A stretch of DNA of 52,182 bases from a virus: positions 1-52,182 of the IMG/VR virus record IMGVR_UViG_3300046680_000196. One strand, written 5' to 3'. The notes beneath the pieces are model-generated. The model had not been told where the DNA came from and did not search any database. It saw only the letters and a program-made list of their open reading frames with translations. Made by a program: the position numbers and the translations under genes. Positions 1 through 52,182 of the stretch are shown one piece after another (positions within the stretch are counted from its first letter, which is position 1; every line of letters begins with the position of its first letter).

Positions 1-104
1 TCTGAGCGTCGTCCTGACGCTCCCGGGAATCGCCTGCATAAAAGCAATGAAGGAATGAATTACTGAATAGGAAGGCTGCGGACCGGGCGCGCGACGCGCT
101 CGAG
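1..104. repeat. Terminal repeat identical to 710-813
   Basis: Positions 1-104 match 710-813 base for base and diverge at 105/814. The copy holds the 3' flank and last codons of a DGR target gene, including the conserved GC-rich end of the variable repeat. The same segment therefore follows both target genes, so either target gene and flank were tandemly duplicated or the window edge lies in an assembly repeat. Confidence 0.95.
4..22 (-). other. Hairpin downstream of VR1
   Basis: A 7-bp perfect stem (4-10 with 16-22) and 5-nt loop lie about 54 bp past the end of VR1 in coding sense. The same hairpin recurs at 713-731 after VR2. In the BPP-1 DGR a hairpin or cruciform beyond the variable repeat is needed for efficient retrohoming; a similar role here is inferred from position only. 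Confidence 0.5.
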
Positions 105-650
105 GTCCTTGCCGTAGACGCTGAGCCAGCCATCTACAAAGCCCATGCCGTAGGCGCTGCCGGCGGAGAACTGCGAGCTGGTCCAGTGGTAGCGCTTGCT
201 GAAGACATTCTTGTCGCCCAGCGTGATCTCCAGAAACGAAGCCTCGCGACGGGACATCAGATGAAAGTCCTTGTGACCCTCGCGCTCGAAGGCGGCACAG
301 AACTGTGCTGCGGGGTAGGAGTCATCTGCACCGATCAGATCGTCCGTGTTTGCTCGGCCATCCCAAGCACTCTTCGCACCGTTGAGTTCGTTGCCGTAAC
401 CACCCCATTCGAACTCTCCCTCAGCATCGGCGCCGGTTGGGACGATCAGGTAGTAGGGCTTGCCGTCGCCCGGGAACAGGCCACCGTTAACGCCACCTTC
501 GCCTGGCCAAACCTCGCCAACGGCTGGGACGCCGATCAGACTTGCGACTGGCTTTGCCGCGGCGACCATCCCGGAGAGAACTTGCAGAGCCAACTCCGGG
601 TTCGGCGTGGAGAGCGTGGTGGTTCCATCACTTACGTTAATCAGTTGCAT
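60..650 (-). CDS. DGR target protein 1, C-type-lectin-like (DUF1566-like) C-terminus
   Basis: 196 aa. The start at 650 was chosen because an AGGAG box sits 7 bases upstream; the frame stays open further but without a comparable site. The C-terminal part reads WTSSQFSA, then the diversified stretch, then ERVARPVRSLPIQ. This matches the layout of DUF1566/Lcl-type C-type lectin folds used as DGR targets. About 35 C-terminal residues are encoded by VR1 (76-176), which differs from the TR only at template adenines. I do not recognise the N-terminal about 150 residues; there is no signal peptide. It lies directly downstream of target 2 and was probably transcribed towards avd and the RT. Function is presumed to be binding of a variable ligand; the ligand is unknown. 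No tail gene adjoins it. Confidence 0.88.
   Translation of the reverse strand: MQLINVSDGTTTLSTPNPELALQVLSGMVAAAKPVASLIGVPAVGEVWPGEGGVNGGLFPGDGKPYYLIVPTGADAEGEFEWGGYGNELNGAKSAWDGRANTDDLIGADDSYPAAQFCAAFEREGHKDFHLMSRREASFLEITLGDKNVFSKRYHWTSSQFSAGSAYGMGFVDGWLSVYGKDLERVARPVRSLPIQ
76..176 (-). repeat. Variable repeat VR1
   Basis: Aligned without gaps to TR 51276-51376. There are 14 differences in 101 positions, all where the TR has T on the plus strand (A on the coding strand): 103, 104, 107, 112, 116, 118, 119, 121, 136, 142, 148, 157, 160, 161. The GC-rich end at 78-102, which would be the initiation of mutagenic homing (IMH) element, is identical to the TR. Homology ends sharply at both borders. 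Confidence 0.95.
162..288. repeat. 127-bp segment identical to the window end (52056-52182)
   Basis: The last 127 bases of the window are identical to 162-288. Both lie in the body of a DGR target gene just upstream of the variable region in coding sense, while the variable parts next to them differ (63-161 versus 51957-52055). A terminal identity of 127 bp is also a common k-mer length in short-read assembly, so the window end is probably a graph break at a repeated gene body. Confidence 0.9.
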
Positions 651-768
651 GGGATGCTCCTGTGAGCGAATTGGGCGCAGGCCGCCGGCGCTACCCGGCA
701 AGCTTCTGGTCTGAGCGTCGTCCTGACGCTCCCGGGAATCGCCTGCATAAAAGCAATGAAGGAATGAA

Positions 769-1245
769 TTACTGAATAGGAAGGCTGCGGACCGGGCGCG
801 CGACGCGCTCGAGAGCCTTGACGTCGTAGTAGAGCCAGCCAACTTCAAAGTCCACGCCGTAGGCGTTGCTGGCGGAGAACTGCGAACTCAGCCAGTGCCA
901 ACGATCCTCGCGCAGGGTGACCAGGCCTTCGGCCTTCGCTGCCATCAGCAGAGCGCCTTCGAGGTAGGACGGGATGTGCGCATCCAGCTGCAGCGCTTTC
1001 ACCGCGATATCGCTGCCGGCTTCAGCCATGGCGCGAGTGTTGGCGGCGCCGTCGCTAAGGCTTTGGGCGCCGGCAACGTCATCGCCGTACTTGCCCCAGG
1101 TGCCAATCAGCTCGTTGTCGAGCAGGACGAGTGCGCGCTCTTCGCCGTTCAACCAGTAGCGAGTGACGAAGGTGCCACCTGCGAGAGGTTGACCGCGTTC
1201 TGGCAGGTCGGCGGCGGATACGGATTGCTGTGCATGTTGAGTCAT
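769..1245 (-). CDS. DGR target protein 2, C-type-lectin-like
   Basis: 158 aa, starting at 1245 behind a GGAG box 6 bases away; an upstream in-frame ATG at 1290 lacks a clear site. The C-terminus follows the family pattern (WLSSQFSA, variable region, ERVARPVRSLPIQ) and is encoded by VR2. The N-terminal part is shorter than and different from target 1, with a tryptophan-rich segment around residues 30-60. It is therefore a paralogue with the same diversified module, not a simple copy. It is followed by the same 59-bp 3' flank as target 1, then the target 1 ribosome site, which suggests co-transcription. Confidence 0.85.
   Translation of the reverse strand: MTQHAQQSVSAADLPERGQPLAGGTFVTRYWLNGEERALVLLDNELIGTWGKYGDDVAGAQSLSDGAANTRAMAEAGSDIAVKALQLDAHIPSYLEGALLMAAKAEGLVTLREDRWHWLSSQFSASNAYGVDFEVGWLYYDVKALERVARPVRSLPIQ
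785..885 (-). repeat. Variable repeat VR2
   Basis: Ungapped alignment to TR 51276-51376 gives 13 differences. Twelve are at template adenines (T on the plus strand of the TR). One, at 814, is a coding-strand C to T change and is the only exception in the three active-looking repeats. The IMH-like GC-rich end is intact. Confidence 0.93.
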
Positions 1246-4710: not shown

Positions 4711-5132
4711 AATTCACCGTCCTCTGACTGAGCAATCAGCGCATGGTCTGCGAGTGGCTGTAGCAGCTTCTCAGCGATTTCGCCGAGCATGCCGAGCGAG
4801 TGGTCGCTGTTGCCGAGCAGCTCATCAGCAGACACCTTGTCGGCGCATCCGCGCTTGGTTTCGATCAGCATGTAGCCGAGCGATGGGGTGGGGACTTGCA
4901 AATCAGCAAGCCGGTTATTCACATGCTCATCAACCGCCAGTGCGAAGTCGCGGAAGCGAACGCCTTGCTGCGGGTTCATACGGCGCTGAAACATTACGTC
5001 GCAGCCGCGAATCAACCGCTCAGCCGCGTCATACAGCCACTCAGACCGCGCCAGATCTTCCGGCGCCTCACTCACTGGAGGCGGAAGCTTCGCGTCGTGC
5101 GCGGCCTGACAGATATTCAGTCTTGCGTTCAT
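4707..5132 (-). CDS. Early protein of unknown function (141 aa)
   Basis: Start at 5132. Mostly helical and charged; the middle (NPQQGVRFRDFALAVDEHVNN) and the C-terminal acidic tail carry no catalytic motif I know. Part of the coupled chain 5651 to 1974. Function unknown. Confidence 0.65.
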   Translation of the reverse strand: MNARLNICQAAHDAKLPPPVSEAPEDLARSEWLYDAAERLIRGCDVMFQRRMNPQQGVRFRDFALAVDEHVNNRLADLQVPTPSLGYMLIETKRGCADKVSADELLGNSDHSLGMLGEIAEKLLQPLADHALIAQSEDGEL

Positions 5133-5155
5133 GATCGCCTCCAGTAGTGGCGGGG

Positions 5156-5305
5156 TTATTCAGGTGTGCGCTTTTCTTGCTTGGCCTTGACGGCGCAGTC
5201 GGCGTGTTGAGTTCGCCAGCCGCCGGAATACCGTTCAAAGTGGCCTTGGCCGACCTCTACACGCTGATTGCAGCGGTAGCAGGTGCCGGGATGCTTGTTT
5301 CTCAT
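5156..5305 (-). CDS. Zinc-ribbon-like small protein (49 aa)
   Basis: MRNKHPGTCYRCNQRV begins at 5305, overlapping the stop of the upstream mini gene by ATGA. It has C-x2-C near residue 9 and an H-x2-C (HADC) near residue 35, a plausible zinc ribbon. Such knuckles are common in phage early proteins that bind host proteins or nucleic acid. No specific family is assigned. Confidence 0.6.
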   Translation of the reverse strand: MRNKHPGTCYRCNQRVEVGQGHFERYSGGWRTQHADCAVKAKQEKRTPE

Positions 5306-5427
5306 GCGATATACCCGCCCGGCATAGTGGTAATCACATTCTTTGGCGCGTCATGCATCCGACCTTTGGCGCAGTCGTGGACGTCGGGGTGGGGCTTGCG
5401 AGGGAGGGGTTGGGTTGTGCGTTTCAT
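5302..5427 (-). CDS. Small basic early protein (41 aa)
   Basis: MKRTTQPLPRKPHPDVHDC begins at 5427 and overlaps the upstream stop by ATGA (5424-5427). Proline- and lysine-rich N-terminus, no domain recognised. Support is the ATGA coupling at both ends. Confidence 0.5.
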   Translation of the reverse strand: MKRTTQPLPRKPHPDVHDCAKGRMHDAPKNVITTMPGGYIA

Positions 5428-5651
5428 GGCTGGCTCCGTGCTGCGAGCATGGCGTCAGCAATCTGGTACGCGACCTGTGCCGAGCCGTGGATATTCGATT
5501 CATTAATGTTCATGCAGACCAGCGCCTTGGCCGCGAAGTAATCGCGCAGGCTCATGCCTTCCTGCGATCGGTTTTGCTGAGAATCCGAGAATTCCCCGTT
5601 TTTTGAAAACGGCCGAGCGAACGCCGGCCCGCCATCATTTTTCGTGCTCAT
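5424..5651 (-). CDS. Conserved phage early protein (75 aa)
   Basis: Start ATG at 5651 with GGAGGTG 6 bases upstream (a GTG at 5654 is in frame). The segment GMSLRDYFAAKAL and the end AYQIADAMLAAR are a recurring pattern in phage accessory proteins of Enterobacteria and Pseudomonas phages, function unknown. First gene after the terminator at 5672-5700, so read-through or a separate promoter must supply transcription. Confidence 0.75.
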   Translation of the reverse strand: MSTKNDGGPAFARPFSKNGEFSDSQQNRSQEGMSLRDYFAAKALVCMNINESNIHGSAQVAYQIADAMLAARSQP

Positions 5652-5671
5652 CACTCACCTCCAGCCGCAAA

Positions 5672-5700
5672 ATAAAAAGCCCGACCTAAGCCGGGCTTTA
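5672..5700. terminator. Bidirectional intrinsic terminator
   Basis: AAAGCCCG-acctaag-CGGGCTTT with A-runs and T-runs on both sides can fold on either strand. In minus direction it would stop PL transcription before the early operon unless antitermination acts. Confidence 0.7.
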
Positions 5701-6118
5701 CTCACTCACGCAGACCTCCCTACGTGAGAGTGAATGCGCCTCCTGCTGGAGGGCTTGGCTGTCTGTTACATGGCTGCAAATCCTCCGCGTGGCCGTATAG
5801 GTTCGTGCGCCGTCCAATCGGGCGCTTGCAGCTGTACCTGCATGGGGGTGTGATCTGCGCGGAAGGCAAGCCCCGCTTTGCGCCTCTGAGTGCGCCCCCT
5901 CAAGCCACGCTCCGGTGATTTCTCACTGCCTGGTCGTGGTCTCGCGTTCCTCCCGAGGTTGCGAACCCTCGCTTTTCGGCTAGCTGCCAGCGCCTTAATG
6001 TCTGCTGGCGGTTCAGATCACACTCCGATGCACCCTATCTAAACGAGTTTTCCCAGAGAGATATCGGGCCGATTTACGTCAGGCGGACGCGCGACGAAGA
6101 TCAAAAGCAATAAATGAA
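5701..6118 (-). other. Interval without a confident gene; long open minus frame
   Basis: On the minus strand one frame is open from 6017 to a stop at 5766, but has no ATG until 5843 (25 codons left) and only a TTG at 5903. Its end reads RADHTPMQVQLQAP and PIRPRGGFAAM. This C-terminal pattern recurs in short hypothetical ORFs of Pseudomonas mobile elements, as far as I recall, and resembles ash-type leader regions. It could be a conserved structured RNA or a leader peptide rather than a protein. GGAGG precedes an ATG-TAA at 5766-5771. Confidence 0.35.
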
Positions 6119-6598
6119 TTACTGAATAGGCAATCTGCGGACAGGGCGGACGAGCCGCTCGTCGCTCTTGCCGCAGTAGTAGATCCAGCCATCTCCGAAG
6201 TCCACGAGGAAGGCGTCGTCGGCGGAATACTGCGAACTCGACCAAACCCAGCCAGTCAGCCTACCGTTGAGGTTCAGCCATATCTCATAAAGCTCGGCAG
6301 CGGCGGGAAGGTAGAAGTCGGCATGACCTTCTGCCTTGTGCTCGTAGGCGGCAACTGCTGCTGGGTATTCACCATCGGAATCAACCAGTGCGGCGGTGTT
6401 GGCCATCCCATCGATCAGGCTGCTGGCTGGCGACAGGTCGCCGTACGGACCCCACTCAAAACTGCCCAGCTCATCACCAAGGATCAGGTGGTAACTCGAC
6501 TATGTACCGCGTGCAGGCATTACGCCTGCGTAAATTCCGCCTTGTCCTAGCCAAACCTCACCAATGGCAGGTGGCTGAATACTCTGCGCTGTGTTCAT
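6119..6598 (-). pseudogene. Fourth DGR target gene, interrupted by an in-frame amber codon
   Basis: The reading frame starts at 6598 (ATGA overlap with the upstream gene, AGGAAAT nearby) and runs to 6119, 159 codons plus stop, with a single TAG at 6500-6502 after about 32 codons. Both halves stay in the same frame and align with target 1: GEVWLGQGG before the stop, then FEWGPYGDL, ANTAALVDSD, WSSSQYSA and RLVRPVRRLPIQ after it. So this is a full-length paralogue with one nonsense mutation, or a gene read by suppression. Its repeat carries many non-adenine changes, including the homing end, so it is unlikely to be a current target. Confidence 0.85.
6135..6235 (-). repeat. Degenerate variable repeat VR4
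   Basis: Ungapped against TR 51276-51376 there are 23 differences, 13 at template adenines and 10 elsewhere (for example 6143, 6149, 6150, 6154, 6155 inside the GC-rich homing end). It was once diversified by this or a related TR but has since drifted, or belongs to a diverged DGR lineage. Confidence 0.8.
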
Positions 6599-7040: not shown

Positions 7041-7769
7041 TTAGATGTCTCCGTCGAAACTGTGGGCTACGTATCTCCCGATGACGGATACATGCTCAAG
7101 CTGGTCAGGGTTCAGACTTTCATCTGGATTCTTCGCGGAGTTGTCGGAGCGAATGATAAGGCCTCCGTCGAATCTTTTATATAGCCGCTTGATACGCAAT
7201 TCGTTGCCGTACCGGATCCCATAAACCTTACCGTCCTGAATTGCGGTGTTGCTTAAGTCAAGTGTGACCTTGGATCCCTCCGGGAGTGTTGGCTCCATCG
7301 ATTCGCCAGTGATTATGAAGTCTGAAAGATTCTTGGGGTTCAGCCGCTTTCGCCTAATCCAATCCATCCGATATGCGTTTCCCTGATCCTGGTGCACTTC
7401 CTCTATCACCATTTCTCCCGTCCCTGCTGCAAATCTCACCTCAATGCGAGGCACGATAATGAACTGGTCATTTGGAAGATCCTCAGGCGCTTCCCACGCA
7501 ATAACATTTTGCCCCGGAGTGAATGGTTCCGGGACTCCCTCACCAGTCGCGATCCACCTTGCGCTAACTCCTGACTCTGAAGCCAGGGCGAAAAGGTTCT
7601 CTGGTTTTATAGATGCGGTTTCGCCAGTCGTCCACTGAGTAACGGCGGATGGGGACACACCGCAGCGCTTCGCCATCTCGCTTTTAGAGAGCTTGCTGTG
7701 CTCGATCGCCAATGCCACCCGCTCATGCCGACCGGCAGGCTCTGAAACATCTCGTCCGAAAAAATTCAT
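7041..7769 (-). CDS. CI/LexA-like prophage repressor with autoprotease
   Basis: 242 aa from ATG 7769 (AGGG 8 bases upstream). Residues about 15-60 form a helix-turn-helix (SKSEMAKRCGVSPSAVTQW). The C-terminal half is an S24 peptidase: cleavage site Ala115-Gly116 (FAAGTG), nucleophile Ser157 (ITGESMEP) and base Lys194 (ELRIKRL), 37 residues apart as in LexA. RecA-stimulated self-cleavage would induce the prophage. It is divergent from the Cro-like gene, with three palindromic operators between them and three more beyond its 3' end. Confidence 0.95.
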   Translation of the reverse strand: MNFFGRDVSEPAGRHERVALAIEHSKLSKSEMAKRCGVSPSAVTQWTTGETASIKPENLFALASESGVSARWIATGEGVPEPFTPGQNVIAWEAPEDLPNDQFIIVPRIEVRFAAGTGEMVIEEVHQDQGNAYRMDWIRRKRLNPKNLSDFIITGESMEPTLPEGSKVTLDLSNTAIQDGKVYGIRYGNELRIKRLYKRFDGGLIIRSDNSAKNPDESLNPDQLEHVSVIGRYVAHSFDGDI

Positions 7770-7789
7770 TTGCAAGCCCTAGAAAAAAG

Positions 7790-7860
7790 TTAAGCGAGCT
7801 TAATTCCGTCGAGGTTAAGCATGCAGTGCCGTCTTGCGCTTGCTCATTAAGCATGCTTAA
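7790..7860. promoter_or_regulatory. Right operator cluster (three repressor sites)
   Basis: Sites 7790-7803 (TTAAGCGAGCTTAA), 7815-7828 (TTAAGCATGCAGTG, right half degenerate) and 7847-7860 (perfect TTAAGCATGCTTAA). They sit between the repressor and Cro-like genes. The perfect site overlaps the PR -10 box, so it is the likely strongest repression site. Confidence 0.88.
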
Positions 7861-7862
7861 AT
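7834..7862 (+). promoter_or_regulatory. Promoter PR
   Basis: TTGCGC (7834-7839), 17 bases, TTAAAT (7857-7862), the same -10 sequence as PL. It would start transcription about 20 bases before the Cro-like gene and is covered by the 7847-7860 operator. Confidence 0.6.
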
Positions 7863-7886
7863 TCAACCAAACTAAGTGGAGCACTT

Positions 7887-8081
7887 ATGAAAAAGACTGA
7901 GGTTTTAAACCACTTCAAAGGCGTCAGTAAGGTTGCTGAGGCTCTGGGCATTAGCCCTGGAGCGGTTTCTCAGTGGCCTGAATCGGTGCCTCCCCTTCGC
8001 CAGCTTCAGTTGCAGGCGATCACCGGCGGCGCACTCAAGGCATCCGAAGATGCCATGCGCTTCCTTACCCCTGCTGCTTAA
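7887..8081 (+). CDS. Cro-like repressor
   Basis: 64 aa, ATG at 7887 preceded by GGAG. MKKTEVLNHFKGVSKVAEAL followed by GISPGAVSQW is a compact helix-turn-helix of the Cro/YdaS type (DNA-binding antirepressor of lambdoid phages). It is divergent from the repressor with the shared operators between. It is expected to bind the same palindromes and turn off repressor synthesis in lytic growth. Confidence 0.85.
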   Translation: MKKTEVLNHFKGVSKVAEALGISPGAVSQWPESVPPLRQLQLQAITGGALKASEDAMRFLTPAA

Positions 8082-8110
8082 CCAATTCGAACAACCAAGG
8101 AGCCTCACCA

Positions 8111-8305
8111 ATGGCAGATGAACCACGGAAAAACAAAAAGCATGTCAACCAACTGAAGGTGCTGCTCGATGACGAGTACGAAGGCCTTCTGGACTATGCG
8201 GCACAAATTCACAGAACCAAAAAGGGCGTACTTGCCCGAGAGGTTTTGAAGTCTTGGCTCCATGACCTTGTTGGCAAGTCTATCCGCGATGACCGTGCGG
8301 CCTGA
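8111..8305 (+). CDS. Ribbon-helix-helix (Arc-like) regulator
   Basis: 64 aa. Basic N-terminus, then HVNQLKVLLDDEYEGLLDY and a second helix (GVLAREVLKSWLHDL), the beta-helix-helix plan of MetJ/Arc proteins. Its position after cro suggests a role like CII or an autoregulator. Three GGGACC repeats at 11-bp period directly downstream (8318-8345) are a candidate binding array. Confidence 0.7.
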   Translation: MADEPRKNKKHVNQLKVLLDDEYEGLLDYAAQIHRTKKGVLAREVLKSWLHDLVGKSIRDDRAA

Positions 8306-8317
8306 AGCAAAACAGTA

Positions 8318-8345
8318 GGGACCCAGCAGGGACCCGATAGGGACC
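8318..8345. repeat. Three GGGACC(C) direct repeats, 11-bp period
   Basis: GGGACCC at 8318-8324 and 8329-8335 and GGGACC at 8340-8345 are exactly 11 bp apart, about one helical turn, so all face the same side. They lie in the 49-bp gap between two small genes, just before the ribosome site of the second. Operator-like. Confidence 0.7.
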
Positions 8346-8354
8346 GGAGGCCGT

Positions 8355-8549
8355 ATGCCAGATGAGAAGGGCATGGAGCTTGGAGAGTTGCTTGATCCGG
8401 AAGAGTTGGAATTGCTGGAGGCGGAGGCGGCAAAGCGCGGGATGTTGCCGCATGAGCTGGCAAAGCTTGGAATCCAGCAAGAGCTGAACAGAAGGACAAG
8501 GCCGAGAGCCATGACAGGAACGATTCAAGCGTTCCGCAAGAAGACGTAA
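8355..8549 (+). CDS. Small acidic early protein (64 aa)
   Basis: Start at 8355 with CCGGAGG 6 bases upstream. Highly acidic leucine-rich N-terminal helix (LGELLDPEELELLEAEAAK), basic C-terminus ending FRKKT. It could be an RHH-like or helical dimer protein. No family assigned. Confidence 0.65.
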   Translation: MPDEKGMELGELLDPEELELLEAEAAKRGMLPHELAKLGIQQELNRRTRPRAMTGTIQAFRKKT

Positions 8550-8614
8550 ATCCAAAGCACAAAAAAGCCACCGGGCAAGGGTGGCTGATTCGATAACACA
8601 ACGTGAGGTCGATT

Positions 8615-8845
8615 ATGAACCATCAGCCAGTGTTCATCAATACCCCAAGTCATATGCCTTTGATCCAGCCAGTCGCTGGTCCATGGCCCGTCTACACGAC
8701 ATTTAAGACATTGCCAGAGCAAGACCGCTGGTACATGTACGAATCCGCCAAGGCACACCGCAAGCTCCTCGAGCAGAGCGGCTTCGAAATGTCCGAAAGC
8801 TACGACGAATTCATCAAACGCGTCACCGATGAACTGGAAATTTGA
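8615..8845 (+). CDS. Early protein of unknown function (76 aa)
   Basis: ATG at 8615 with GAGGTC upstream was preferred over 8603. The sequence is soluble with an aromatic centre (RWYMYESAKAHRKLLEQSG). It is directly followed by the replication initiator, with start codons almost touching its stop. Function unknown. Confidence 0.65.
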   Translation: MNHQPVFINTPSHMPLIQPVAGPWPVYTTFKTLPEQDRWYMYESAKAHRKLLEQSGFEMSESYDEFIKRVTDELEI

Positions 8846-8847
8846 CC

Positions 8848-9681
8848 ATGCATTATTTCAAAAGAAACATCGGTGACTATCACAAAAAGGCTGGCCGTCT
8901 TTCCATGACTGAGCACGGCGCGTACACGCTTCTGCTCGACGCGTGCTATGACCGTGAGCGCTTCCCAACTCTCGAGGAAGCTCTGGACTGGTGCTGGGCA
9001 CGATCTGACGAAGAAGTGACTGCGGTTACCTTCGTCCTGAGCAAGTTCTTTGATCTTGTTGACGGTCGTTATGTCCAGGCGCGCATTCAGGATGAAATCA
9101 ACAGCTATCACGCCATGGCCTTGAAAAACAAGGTGATTGCTGAAAAGCGTGAATCCGACAAACGCACGAAGCGTGAACTGGATAGCACGAAGCGTGCACG
9201 CGACGTACACGAACCGGCACCTAACCAAGAACCAAGAACCACTAACCAAGAACCAAAAGATCAAGATCAAAAGATTTGCGCCGCTACCGCTGCGCCTGGT
9301 CAGGTCGAAGATCCGAAGGACTCCTCAGGGGCTGTCCAGCCCAAGGCCAGTAAGGGCACCCGCTTAGCCAGCGACTGGGCGCTTCCTGAAGCATGGCGCG
9401 CTTGGGCCGTTGATGCCCGCCCAGAACTCGGCGTTGTCGGTATTGATCTCGAAGCTGACAAGTTTCGCGATCACTGGCATTCCGCAACCGGCGCCAAGGC
9501 CACCAAGGCTGATTGGCTTGCCACCTGGCGAAACTGGGTCCGTAACGCGCACGCACCTCGCAATGTCCACGCGTTCCCTGTGAAATCTGCCTTCACCAAC
9601 CTGCCGCAAGTAAACGCCGCCGAGATCCGCGCCCGCACTGCCGAGAATGAACGTCTGGGGGTGCGCCGTGCGAACTTCTAA
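8848..9681 (+). CDS. YdaU-type (DUF1376) phage replication initiation protein
   Basis: 277 aa from ATG 8848 (a TTG at 8842 is in frame). The opening HYFKRNIGDYHKKAGRLSM and GAYTLLLDACYDRE are the DUF1376 signature. The domain spans about residues 1-95, then a low-complexity linker with Asn-Gln-Glu-Pro repeats (about 125-150), then a C-terminal domain with WRAWAVD and FRDHWHS. This family occupies the lambda O position. The linker-coding DNA has two sets of 21-bp-period repeats that may be the origin. DnaC-like and DnaB-like genes follow. Confidence 0.85.
   Translation: MHYFKRNIGDYHKKAGRLSMTEHGAYTLLLDACYDRERFPTLEEALDWCWARSDEEVTAVTFVLSKFFDLVDGRYVQARIQDEINSYHAMALKNKVIAEKRESDKRTKRELDSTKRARDVHEPAPNQEPRTTNQEPKDQDQKICAATAAPGQVEDPKDSSGAVQPKASKGTRLASDWALPEAWRAWAVDARPELGVVGIDLEADKFRDHWHSATGAKATKADWLATWRNWVRNAHAPRNVHAFPVKSAFTNLPQVNAAEIRARTAENERLGVRRANF
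9164..9271. repeat. Iteron-like repeats inside the initiator gene (candidate origin)
   Basis: GCACGAAGCGTG occurs at 9164-9175 and 9185-9196 (CACG/CGTG arms). CTAACCAAGAACCA occurs at 9221-9234 and 9242-9255. Both pairs repeat at exactly 21 bp. An A-rich AGATCAA doublet follows at 9258-9271. Lambda and relatives carry their origin iterons inside the O gene in the linker-coding region, as here. Confidence 0.5.
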
Positions 9682-50175: not shown

Positions 50176-51333
50176 TCATTTCTTCGGATAGGTTTTGGTG
50201 AGGGAGCCATTGACGCTATATCCGCGCTTTAGCACGACGTTGGCCAGCTTCTCGCGGTCTTTCTCGCTGTGGCTGGCCTGACTGAGCAGACCGAAGTAAC
50301 TGTTGGCGGTTTCGCGCAGATCCTCGGCGGGTGCCGCAGCGGTCCGTTTCAGTGCCTGGGCTAGTGATCGCTTCCGCGTGGTCCGCCGCCAGGGCTTGAT
50401 GACGTGTCCAACGAAGTCGACGCCTCGGTCCACCGGTTGAAGGATGGTCTTCGTCGGATTCAGCTTGGCGCCGAGGGTCGACAGGAACAATTCAACCTCG
50501 GCCTTCCAGGCGTTCAACTGTTGTGGCGAATCATGCAGGAACACGAAGTCGTCGACGTAGCGGACGTAATGCTTGGCGCCGAGCCGGTGCTTGGCAAACT
50601 GATCCAGCGCGTCGAGGTAGACGTTGGCGAAGAACTGCGAGGAAAGGTTGCCGATCGGCAGGCCTAGGTGCGCCGGTTGCGCTGTCAGGCGCTTGTGCTG
50701 CGGCACCCGGTTGAACAGATGGGCGGGGCTGCGCAACACGTAATCTTCGCGCGGGTCGTGCATCAGGATCGTTTCGGCCAGCGACAGCCACCAAGGCTCG
50801 GTGATCTTCTTGGCCAGCTGATGGCGCAGCACCTGCTTATCGATCGCGACGAAGAAGTTGGCGAGATCGCACTTGAGGTAGAAGATCGGCTTCGCCCAGT
50901 TTTGGCTGGCGCTGCGGATCTTCGATTCAAGGCGTTTCGCGGCGTACAACGTGCCGCGCCCTGGGATGCACGCACAACTGTCCGCTATGAAGCTGGCGTA
51001 GAAGCGCGGTGCCACATGGTTGTACATAAGGTGGTGGACGACGCGATCCCGGAACGCTGCTGCCCAAACCTCGCGGGCTTTCGGTCGGGTGACCACGAAG
51101 CAGATGGAGCGGCCTGGCCGGTAGGTGCCGGCGATCAGGTCGTCGTGGAGCTCCAGCAAGTTGATCTCCATATCCTTCTCGAAGTACCGGGCGCTCGCGG
51201 TGTTCCGCTTGTTCCGGCGGCAGTCGTAATACGCTTGGACGAGATCTTCGAACTGGAAGGGTGCAACACTTAAATCTGCGGACCGGGCGCGCGACGCGCT
51301 CGTTGTTCTTGTCGTTGTTGTTGAGCCAGCCAT
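50176..51333 (-). CDS. DGR reverse transcriptase
   Basis: 385 aa if translation starts at ATG 51333. RT blocks: FRDRVVHHLM, YLKCDLANFFVAID (Asp156, palm), GLPIGNLSSQFFAN (225-237, with the SQ of DGR enzymes instead of SP) and YVRYVDDFVF (YVDD 259-262, catalytic), then GVDFVGHVIKPW. No maturase domain. It copies the TR RNA and misincorporates at adenines, with Avd. Strikingly, ATG 51333 lies inside the TR, and no good ribosome site or later conserved ATG is seen, so the true start is uncertain. Confidence 0.92.
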   Translation of the reverse strand: MAGSTTTTRTTSASRARSADLSVAPFQFEDLVQAYYDCRRNKRNTASARYFEKDMEINLLELHDDLIAGTYRPGRSICFVVTRPKAREVWAAAFRDRVVHHLMYNHVAPRFYASFIADSCACIPGRGTLYAAKRLESKIRSASQNWAKPIFYLKCDLANFFVAIDKQVLRHQLAKKITEPWWLSLAETILMHDPREDYVLRSPAHLFNRVPQHKRLTAQPAHLGLPIGNLSSQFFANVYLDALDQFAKHRLGAKHYVRYVDDFVFLHDSPQQLNAWKAEVELFLSTLGAKLNPTKTILQPVDRGVDFVGHVIKPWRRTTRKRSLAQALKRTAAAPAEDLRETANSYFGLLSQASHSEKDREKLANVVLKRGYSVNGSLTKTYPKK

Positions 51334-51376
51334 CTTCAAAGTCCATGTCGTAGGCGTTGTTGGCGGAGAACTGCGA
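51276..51376 (-). repeat. DGR template repeat (TR)
   Basis: The 101 bp read in coding sense FSANNAYDMDFEDGWLNNN and DKNNERVARPVRR, with the AAC codons typical of DGR templates. It has 27 adenines on the coding strand; 21 of these are changed in at least one of VR1-VR3. It lies between avd and the RT core and overlaps the start of the RT frame. It is transcribed but not translated as lectin, as no start and no gene body precede it. Confidence 0.95.
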
Positions 51377-51545
51377 CCTATCAAGCTATCTACATCGCCT
51401 TGCCGAAGGCGGAACCGATCAGCAAGGAAACTGCACAAGACCTACGCGGACGCTTTAGACCGGCGGTATCTTTTGTGTGCATGGCGGTGACCCAGAGGCC
51501 AGCGGCTCGACCAGATTTTGCGCACAGGCGCGAGAGCCTTGGCCC
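51377..51545 (-). other. avd-TR spacer, no gene
   Basis: 169 bp between the avd stop and the TR. No supported gene. In DGRs the RNA flanking the TR contributes to priming and RT/Avd binding, so this and the TR-RT junction are likely part of the functional template RNA. Confidence 0.5.
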
Positions 51546-51899
51546 TCACCCAGCGGGCGCGGTTGCGGACTTCTTCCAGGCATTTGCCTGTCGACCTACA
51601 GATGCCGTTAACTTCATTGCTTTGGCGTGCTGCCCTTTACTGATCAGCGCTTTATTGGTAAGCGCTCGCAGCAAGTAATTCAGCATCCAAATGCTTTCCA
51701 GTAGGAGGTTCAGGTGGGGCAGCTTGTCTCGCGACATGTTGGCCCGACCAATCAGCACCAGAACCTGCAGACACTCGTCTCGAATCTTCGCTCCTACGAC
51801 CTGTTTAAGGTCGCGAGGGATGTTGCGCACCAGGTCGAGCGACATGCCAAGCAGTTCTTCTGCAACCTTGTGGATCTCCAGATCCATGTGAAGGGCCAT
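51546..51899 (-). CDS. avd: DGR accessory variability determinant (Avd)
   Basis: 117 aa from ATG 51899 with AAGGAGG upstream. All-helical, basic protein (DLEIHKVAEELLGMSLDLV, NIPRDLKQVVGAKIRDECLQ, RDKLPHLNLLLESIWMLNYL), in keeping with the pentameric four-helix bundle Avd family, usually about 120-130 aa. It binds the RT and template RNA and is needed for mutagenic cDNA. Lies between VR3 target and TR. Confidence 0.9.
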   Translation of the reverse strand: MALHMDLEIHKVAEELLGMSLDLVRNIPRDLKQVVGAKIRDECLQVLVLIGRANMSRDKLPHLNLLLESIWMLNYLLRALTNKALISKGQHAKAMKLTASVGRQANAWKKSATAPAG

Positions 51900-51920
51900 C
51901 CTGGCCTCCTTGAAAAGCGA

Positions 51921-51936
51921 GGGCGCTATCGCGCCC
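51921..51936 (-). other. Hairpin downstream of VR3
   Basis: GGGCGC-tatc-GCGCCC, a 6-bp GC stem with a GATA loop on the coding strand, about 34 bp after the end of VR3. It differs in sequence from the hairpins after VR1/VR2 but keeps the feature. It overlaps the region just before avd. Confidence 0.55.
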
Positions 51937-51956
51937 ATGAATGAAGGATTGAAGGA

Positions 51957-52182
51957 TCAAATAAATCGTCTGCGGACCGGGCGCGCGACGCGCTCGCTGC
52001 CCTCGTCGTAGCCGTAGAGCCAGCCACCTACAAAGACCAAGACGCAGGCGTCGTTGGCGGAGAACTGCGAGCTGGTCCAGTGGTAGCGCTTGCTGAAGAC
52101 ATTCTTGTCGCCCAGCGTGATCTCCAGAAACGAAGCCTCGCGACGGGACATCAGATGAAAGTCCTTGTGACCCTCGCGCTCG
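51957..52182 (-). CDS. DGR target protein 3 (5' end cut off by window)
   Basis: Only the last 75 codons are present: FHLMSRREASFLEITLGDKN and WTSSQFSA (identical to target 1 upstream of the variable part), then the variable stretch from VR3 and ERVARPVRRRFI. The start lies beyond 52182. It precedes avd. It differs from target 1 at the C-terminus (RRRFI against RSLPIQ) and 3' flank, so it is a real additional gene or the true end of the gene whose body is at 162-650. Confidence 0.85.
   Translation of the reverse strand, partial: EREGHKDFHLMSRREASFLEITLGDKNVFSKRYHWTSSQFSANDACVLVFVGGWLYGYDEGSERVARPVRRRFI
51970..52070 (-). repeat. Variable repeat VR3
   Basis: Ungapped with TR 51276-51376: 15 differences, all at coding-strand adenines of the TR. 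The GC-rich homing end is identical to the TR. It is the avd-proximal target repeat. Confidence 0.95.

Follow-up and report, generated by a model that had tools for sequence, protein, structure and literature searches.

The locus considered here raises the question of how a diversity-generating retroelement (DGR) starts to copy its template when there is almost no spacer 3' of that template, and of what a phage may diversify with such an element. The accepted model of the copy start was derived mostly from a single phage that has its guide RNA 3' of the template. We analysed the whole of the IMG/VR virus record IMGVR_UViG_3300046680_000196 (52,182 bases, hereafter the window), which carries a DGR whose structured RNA lies on the other side. 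That this is a DGR, and one of a known kind, is certain. The reading that we favour, with moderate confidence, is that of a complete DGR belonging to a family of Pseudomonas prophages, with a 5' RNA tethered at the 3' edge of the template repeat (TR), a reverse transcriptase (RT) whose translation starts within TR, and two targets in the early region whose variable repeats (VRs) are rewritten. The relocated RNA with its covarying tether, together with the probable RT start in the template, sets this DGR apart as a variant.

The distance between avd and TR is 169 nt in the record, and it is covered by a full-length match to the structured RNA family RT-15 of Rfam (RF03018; 163.5 bits, E 9.4e-41, above the gathering score of 82), which the original prediction for this DNA had missed. 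The same RNA was found at the same place, 5' of TR, in all eight DGR-bearing relatives searched, from phages of Pseudomonas, Burkholderia and Shewanella. With 22 sequences, RNAalifold suggests a helix between UGAAUCUG in the RT-15 RNA and CAGAUUCA at the 3' edge of TR. Across 48 distinct sequences, 95.6% of the cells of this helix are paired, and one of its pairs appears as G-C in 37, A-U in 9 and C-G in 2, without a break. The covariation score of 0.168 falls to 0.051 or less when the helix partner is slid, and in the record seven of the eight pairs have a pair probability of 0.78-0.88. The Rfam model ends at TR position 3 and shows no pairing for AAUCUG, whereas in the record's family this segment pairs with the TR 3' edge; the long-range helix therefore goes beyond the RT-15 model.

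The start of the RT gene can be followed in the relatives, which were fetched as 80 viral contigs and 38 Pseudomonas genome contigs; a TR could be recognised in 122 loci. Read from TR position 44 onwards, the RT frame stays open in 122 of 123 loci. The codon at that position is ATG in 120, among them the record with its candidate start (51333). The conserved RT body starts within a few codons of the TR end, and in 94 of the 123 loci the first 33 nt after TR contain no in-frame ATG, GTG or TTG, so that translation most likely begins inside TR. Conservation of the ATG is by itself no evidence, because this codon follows from the conserved GATGGC of the target motif; it is the lack of other starts that argues for the position. 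An in-frame stop lies within TR upstream of position 44 in 72 loci. Pseudomonas phage Haboob is the exception, with an ATG after TR.

Table 1. Features of the DGR and its surroundings in the window (positions of the record)
Feature	Position	Strand	Remarks
RT open reading frame	50176-51333	-	RVT_1 6e-15; PHROG RT 2e-116; 8ub7 7e-37
Proposed long-range helix, 3' arm	51271-51278	-	CAG of TR and ATTTA after it
TR	51276-51376	-	101 nt, 27 adenines
Structured RNA, Rfam RT-15 (RF03018)	51374-51562	-	directly 5' of TR, overlaps avd 3' end
Proposed long-range helix, 5' arm	~51511-51518	-	AAAATCTG in RT-15 RNA
avd	51546-51899	-	117 aa; profile matches
Inverted repeat GGGCGC-GATA-GCGCCC	51921-51936	-	33 nt past VR-c
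Target 2, 3' part (T-c)	51957-52182	-	truncated by record end; VR-c 51970-52070
Inverted repeat GAGCGTC-AGGAC-GACGCTC, second copy	4-22		after VR-b
Target gene T-b	60-650	-	196 aa; VR-b 76-176
Inverted repeat GAGCGTC-AGGAC-GACGCTC	713-731	-	53 nt past VR-a
Target 1 (T-a)	769-1245	-	158 aa; VR-a 785-885
Remote target, broken	6119-6598	-	in-frame TAG at 6500-6502; VR 6135-6235; downstream of repressor

The other parts are those expected of the element (Table 1), and the original prediction of a complete DGR in a temperate, contractile-tailed Pseudomonas phage, with the minus-strand order target-avd-TR-RT, is borne out. Profile searches find an integrase, a CI-like repressor, a tail sheath, a tape measure and baseplate proteins in the record, and the genome relatives are all Pseudomonas. 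The profile search that had been proposed for avd returns Pfam bAvd at 1.2e-15 and the PHROG family "Avd protein of DGR" at 4e-28, with NCBIfam Avd at 2e-13, under that model's cut-off. Inverted repeats follow the VRs, as in the DGR of phage BPP-1, and none was found when one was looked for after TR in the record. The VRs differ from TR almost only at TR adenines, at 12 of 13 mismatches in VR-a, 14 of 14 in VR-b and 15 of 15 in VR-c, or 41 of 42 together (binomial P 1e-6 to 3e-9). The same bias runs through the family, where 211 distinct TR/VR pairs hold 2870 mismatches, 2782 of them at A (A>G 1303, A>T 1024, A>C 455).

Variation between close relatives shows that the DGR family is active in nature, as seen in relatives rather than in the record's own population. 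Two loci from two metagenomes (L010 and L011) show no difference in ~1795 nt around VR2 and TR or in 1000 nt around VR1, and their VRs carry 14 and 18 differences per 101 positions. An absence of flank differences beside 14 and 18 in the VRs is predicted by mutagenic retrohoming and not by ordinary mutation, and VR variation with an invariant surround is also present in the pair L074/L099. A lack of population variation in the VRs, which had been named beforehand as speaking against a DGR, is thus not what related phages display. The synthesis of cDNA and the retrohoming by this particular RT and RNA are predicted from the sequences. Contig ends were also considered as a footprint of VR variation; among the relatives the 127-nt distance of the record is clear only in L056, and the ends were not used as evidence of activity.

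Some loci of the family are recorded here in their own right. The TR of L123 (~7895-7995) has only 22 adenines and looks like a VR after diversification, as though rewriting had reached the template too. In the P. fluorescens HK44 locus (L125; 6503, 8001-8840), the RT match is truncated, and the target 1 VR is closer to the TR of another phage (0 non-A mismatches) than to its own (4). One 59.5-kb viral record holds two DGR loci, ~90% alike, near its two ends (L142, 3522-3614, and L018), the second of which is cut within its TR.

How many targets the TR serves is the point on which an alternative survives best. One TR had been said to serve at least three repeats: three VRs are present and A-biased, and the third tandem target is doubtful, given that the record ends inside a target and most relatives have exactly two. 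Two VRs occur in 103 of the 122 loci and three in 12, nearly always with the third one remote, ~2-7.5 kb upstream, and none of the 122 relatives has three in tandem. In L010, target 1, spacer, target 2, avd, TR and RT lie in one piece, and both T-b and T-c of the record align to its target 2, which is one gene in the relatives. T-b combines the body of target 2 with a C-terminus and spacer of the target 1 type. The last 127 nt of T-c before the first VR difference are identical to T-b, and the first 104 nt of the record repeat the spacer between the other two targets. T-b is either a tandem copy, of a 709-bp unit made of spacer and target 2, or a misjoined assembly of variants of one locus. 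We lean somewhat against a genome that truly has three tandem targets, with one TR serving three VRs, and still give it serious weight: the record itself joins the target 2 body, VR-b and the target 1 spacer, and a long exact repeat would account for the place at which it ends. Such a genome could have arisen through duplication of spacer and target 2 (~709 bp) by unequal crossing-over or, more speculatively, through cDNA primed at the target 1 site and joined to the target 2 body. Against it stand the relatives, and the position of the low end, which lies 104 nt inside the repeat, after the VR divergence, rather than at the 127 nt that separate the high end from that divergence; these unequal ends slightly favour an artefact or a rare variant. 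The count of three is not backed by the 122 relatives and may be an assembly artefact, and the tally should better be stated as two targets and one further copy, tandem or artefactual.

The second alternative concerns the RNA. The gap between TR and the RT domain is 2-26 nt in this family, as opposed to 135-320 nt in nine phage DGRs including BPP-1, and a long structured spacer of the BPP-1 type is thus missing here; we infer that the RT-15 RNA does the job of this 3' spacer. The RNA could instead work as in BPP-1, with the RT coding sequence 3' of TR as the spacer and RT-15 serving stability or the control of RT translation. This would agree with the overlap of RT-15 with the end of avd, and with the low synonymous change in the first RT codons after TR (block 16-30), which makes a short 3' element possible. 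However, synonymous change is high from RT codon 31 on (0.52), so that no long conserved RNA lies there, and the conserved structure sits 5' of TR; we hold this alternative to be unlikely. Besides the low synonymous change, several points weigh against the tethered RNA that we favour: the shuffle control of the helix covariation ignores relatedness; when sequences are folded singly, the helix is strong in no more than three of nine, one of them the record; and Bacteroides phage F2 is intermediate, with a gap of 50 nt, so that this layout may be more frequent than the nine measured DGRs make it look.

The third alternative concerns the role of the targets. They match phrog_4245, a family of unknown function, and bear a likeness to Lcl_C (DUF1566, PF07603), at 14.7 bits for the target of the record and up to 30.4 for relatives, below the cut-off of 34.9. 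Structure prediction yields a poor model for target 1 (pLDDT 50) and a usable body with a low-confidence VR for target 2. A fold search of the target 2 model in the PDB found no solved match, and this too counts against our reading. A RecE-like exonuclease is encoded in the same leftward operon as the targets, which lie outside the tail module and have no tail gene near them, and the same cassette occupies a similar region of Pseudomonas phages Cruim01 and Haboob, in neither of which a sheath is annotated. Since phages with contractile tails and phages with apparently non-contractile ones both gain and lose the whole cassette in their early operon, its targets are unlikely to be tail proteins, and probably not virion proteins at all; the cassette would be expressed early. 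Judged by genomic context only, receptor binding is a less fitting role than one in early infection or lysogeny, which might be to counter host defences or to exclude other phages. The best fold matches include a D3 protein. It is doubtful that the targets are virion receptor-binding proteins as in BPP-1, simply encoded in the early region. Tail proteins are most of the virus-encoded DGR targets (PMC8144416), Lcl_C-like domains are known among DGR targets in general (PMC6642488), and some fold matches are C-terminal parts of large proteins with tail-spike-like names. Yet the lack of a nearby tail gene, the presence of the same target pair in phages with contractile and with apparently non-contractile tails, a single relative beside cI in PMG1, and the exchange of the cassette with a methyltransferase all argue the other way.

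As for the enzyme, the RT carries the motifs GNLSSQ and YVDD, in agreement with the SQ and YVDD first noticed, and its best solved relative is the reverse transcriptase 8ub7, which we take to be the BPP-1 DGR enzyme. An origin from a group II intron or retron, a placement named beforehand as speaking against a DGR, with incidental repeats, is rejected and effectively refuted. In its favour NCBIfam lists a group II RT/maturase at 4e-27, far under its cut-off; against it stand the A-specific mismatches, Avd, the SQ motif and 131 bits to 8ub7 versus 40 to a group II intron RT (a comparison among solved structures).

The DGR cassette is gained and lost as a block in the early operon. One relative (L210) is without everything from record position 1262 to 50173, shares the neighbouring genes with the record at 88-98% identity, and has at the DGR site a 600-aa protein read as a cytosine methyltransferase (4724-6526); another (L012) has both, with a methyltransferase-like gene (7152-8954) behind the cassette. 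A remote, broken target of the record, also absent from the original prediction, is consistent with this swap. Its VR has 10 non-A mismatches to the TR of the record. Compared with the TR of L016 it has 13 mismatches, all at A, and another TR allele must therefore have written it, either that of a former resident cassette or one acting in trans. Aurca01 (L219, 2179-4087) retains both targets and, of the RT, an 87-nt stretch that matches its 3' end, and Medea1 (L217, 4992-6811) keeps two targets and is not among the RT matches listed (the best 40 of 96 records). Both have an extra gene where avd-TR-RT would be, NUMOD4/HNH-like in Medea1 as read from its sequence. Targets are thus able to outlive the machinery. 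Remote VRs occur in about a dozen relatives, including L109, L110 and L115, and that of L110 fits none of the TRs found here (at least 6 non-A mismatches).

In the mechanism that we propose, RT and Avd would miscopy the TR RNA at adenines, and the resulting cDNA would replace the VR that lies at the 3' end in each of two neighbouring small Lcl_C/DUF1566-like genes, with targets and machinery moving as one cassette in the early leftward operon of the phage. RT-15, 5' of TR, would be the structured RNA that recruits RT-Avd to the template; the long-range helix would hold it at the TR 3' edge, in replacement of the BPP-1 3' spacer, and RT translation would begin inside TR. A far-reaching version can be offered only tentatively: that a 5' guide RNA tethered to the TR 3' edge gives a cDNA start geometry unlike that of BPP-1, that the RT mRNA has the template RNA as its 5' end, and that non-virion early proteins are diversified. 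Finding the structured RNA on the opposite side throughout a widespread family, with a covarying helix that leads it back to the same spot, would reveal which part of the geometry is essential and give a second, compact layout of the template for study. Additionally, paired targets outside the tail module, exchanged as a cassette, make it testable what phages diversify besides host attachment.

In comparison with known systems, the record and BPP-1 share RT, Avd, TR, A-specific VRs, an inverted repeat after the VR, and the order target-avd-TR-RT. The inverted repeats lie 33 and 53 nt after the VRs in the record and only a few bases after in BPP-1. In BPP-1, TR adjoins the upstream gene and is followed by 144 nt before brt, a spacer that has been reported to fold, recruit RT-Avd and prime cDNA (PMC12875486), whereas the record has a 169-nt RNA before TR and the probable RT start in TR. 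The BPP-1 target is a tail protein; those of the record's family are two early-region proteins. The tentaclin phage DGRs nd4 and nd12 likewise have one TR and two different targets (PMC10743442), and the record differs in that its targets are early-region genes, both with the VR at the 3' end. Also close are the DGRs of Burkholderia phage Magia, Shewanella phage QDWS and Pseudomonas phages Cruim01, Haboob and LPPA56, which belong to the same family, with two targets, avd, and TR by the RT. RT-15 was found in the first four, LPPA56 being aligned only. Their RTs are ~64-86% identical to that of the record, and their other phage genes are largely unrelated.
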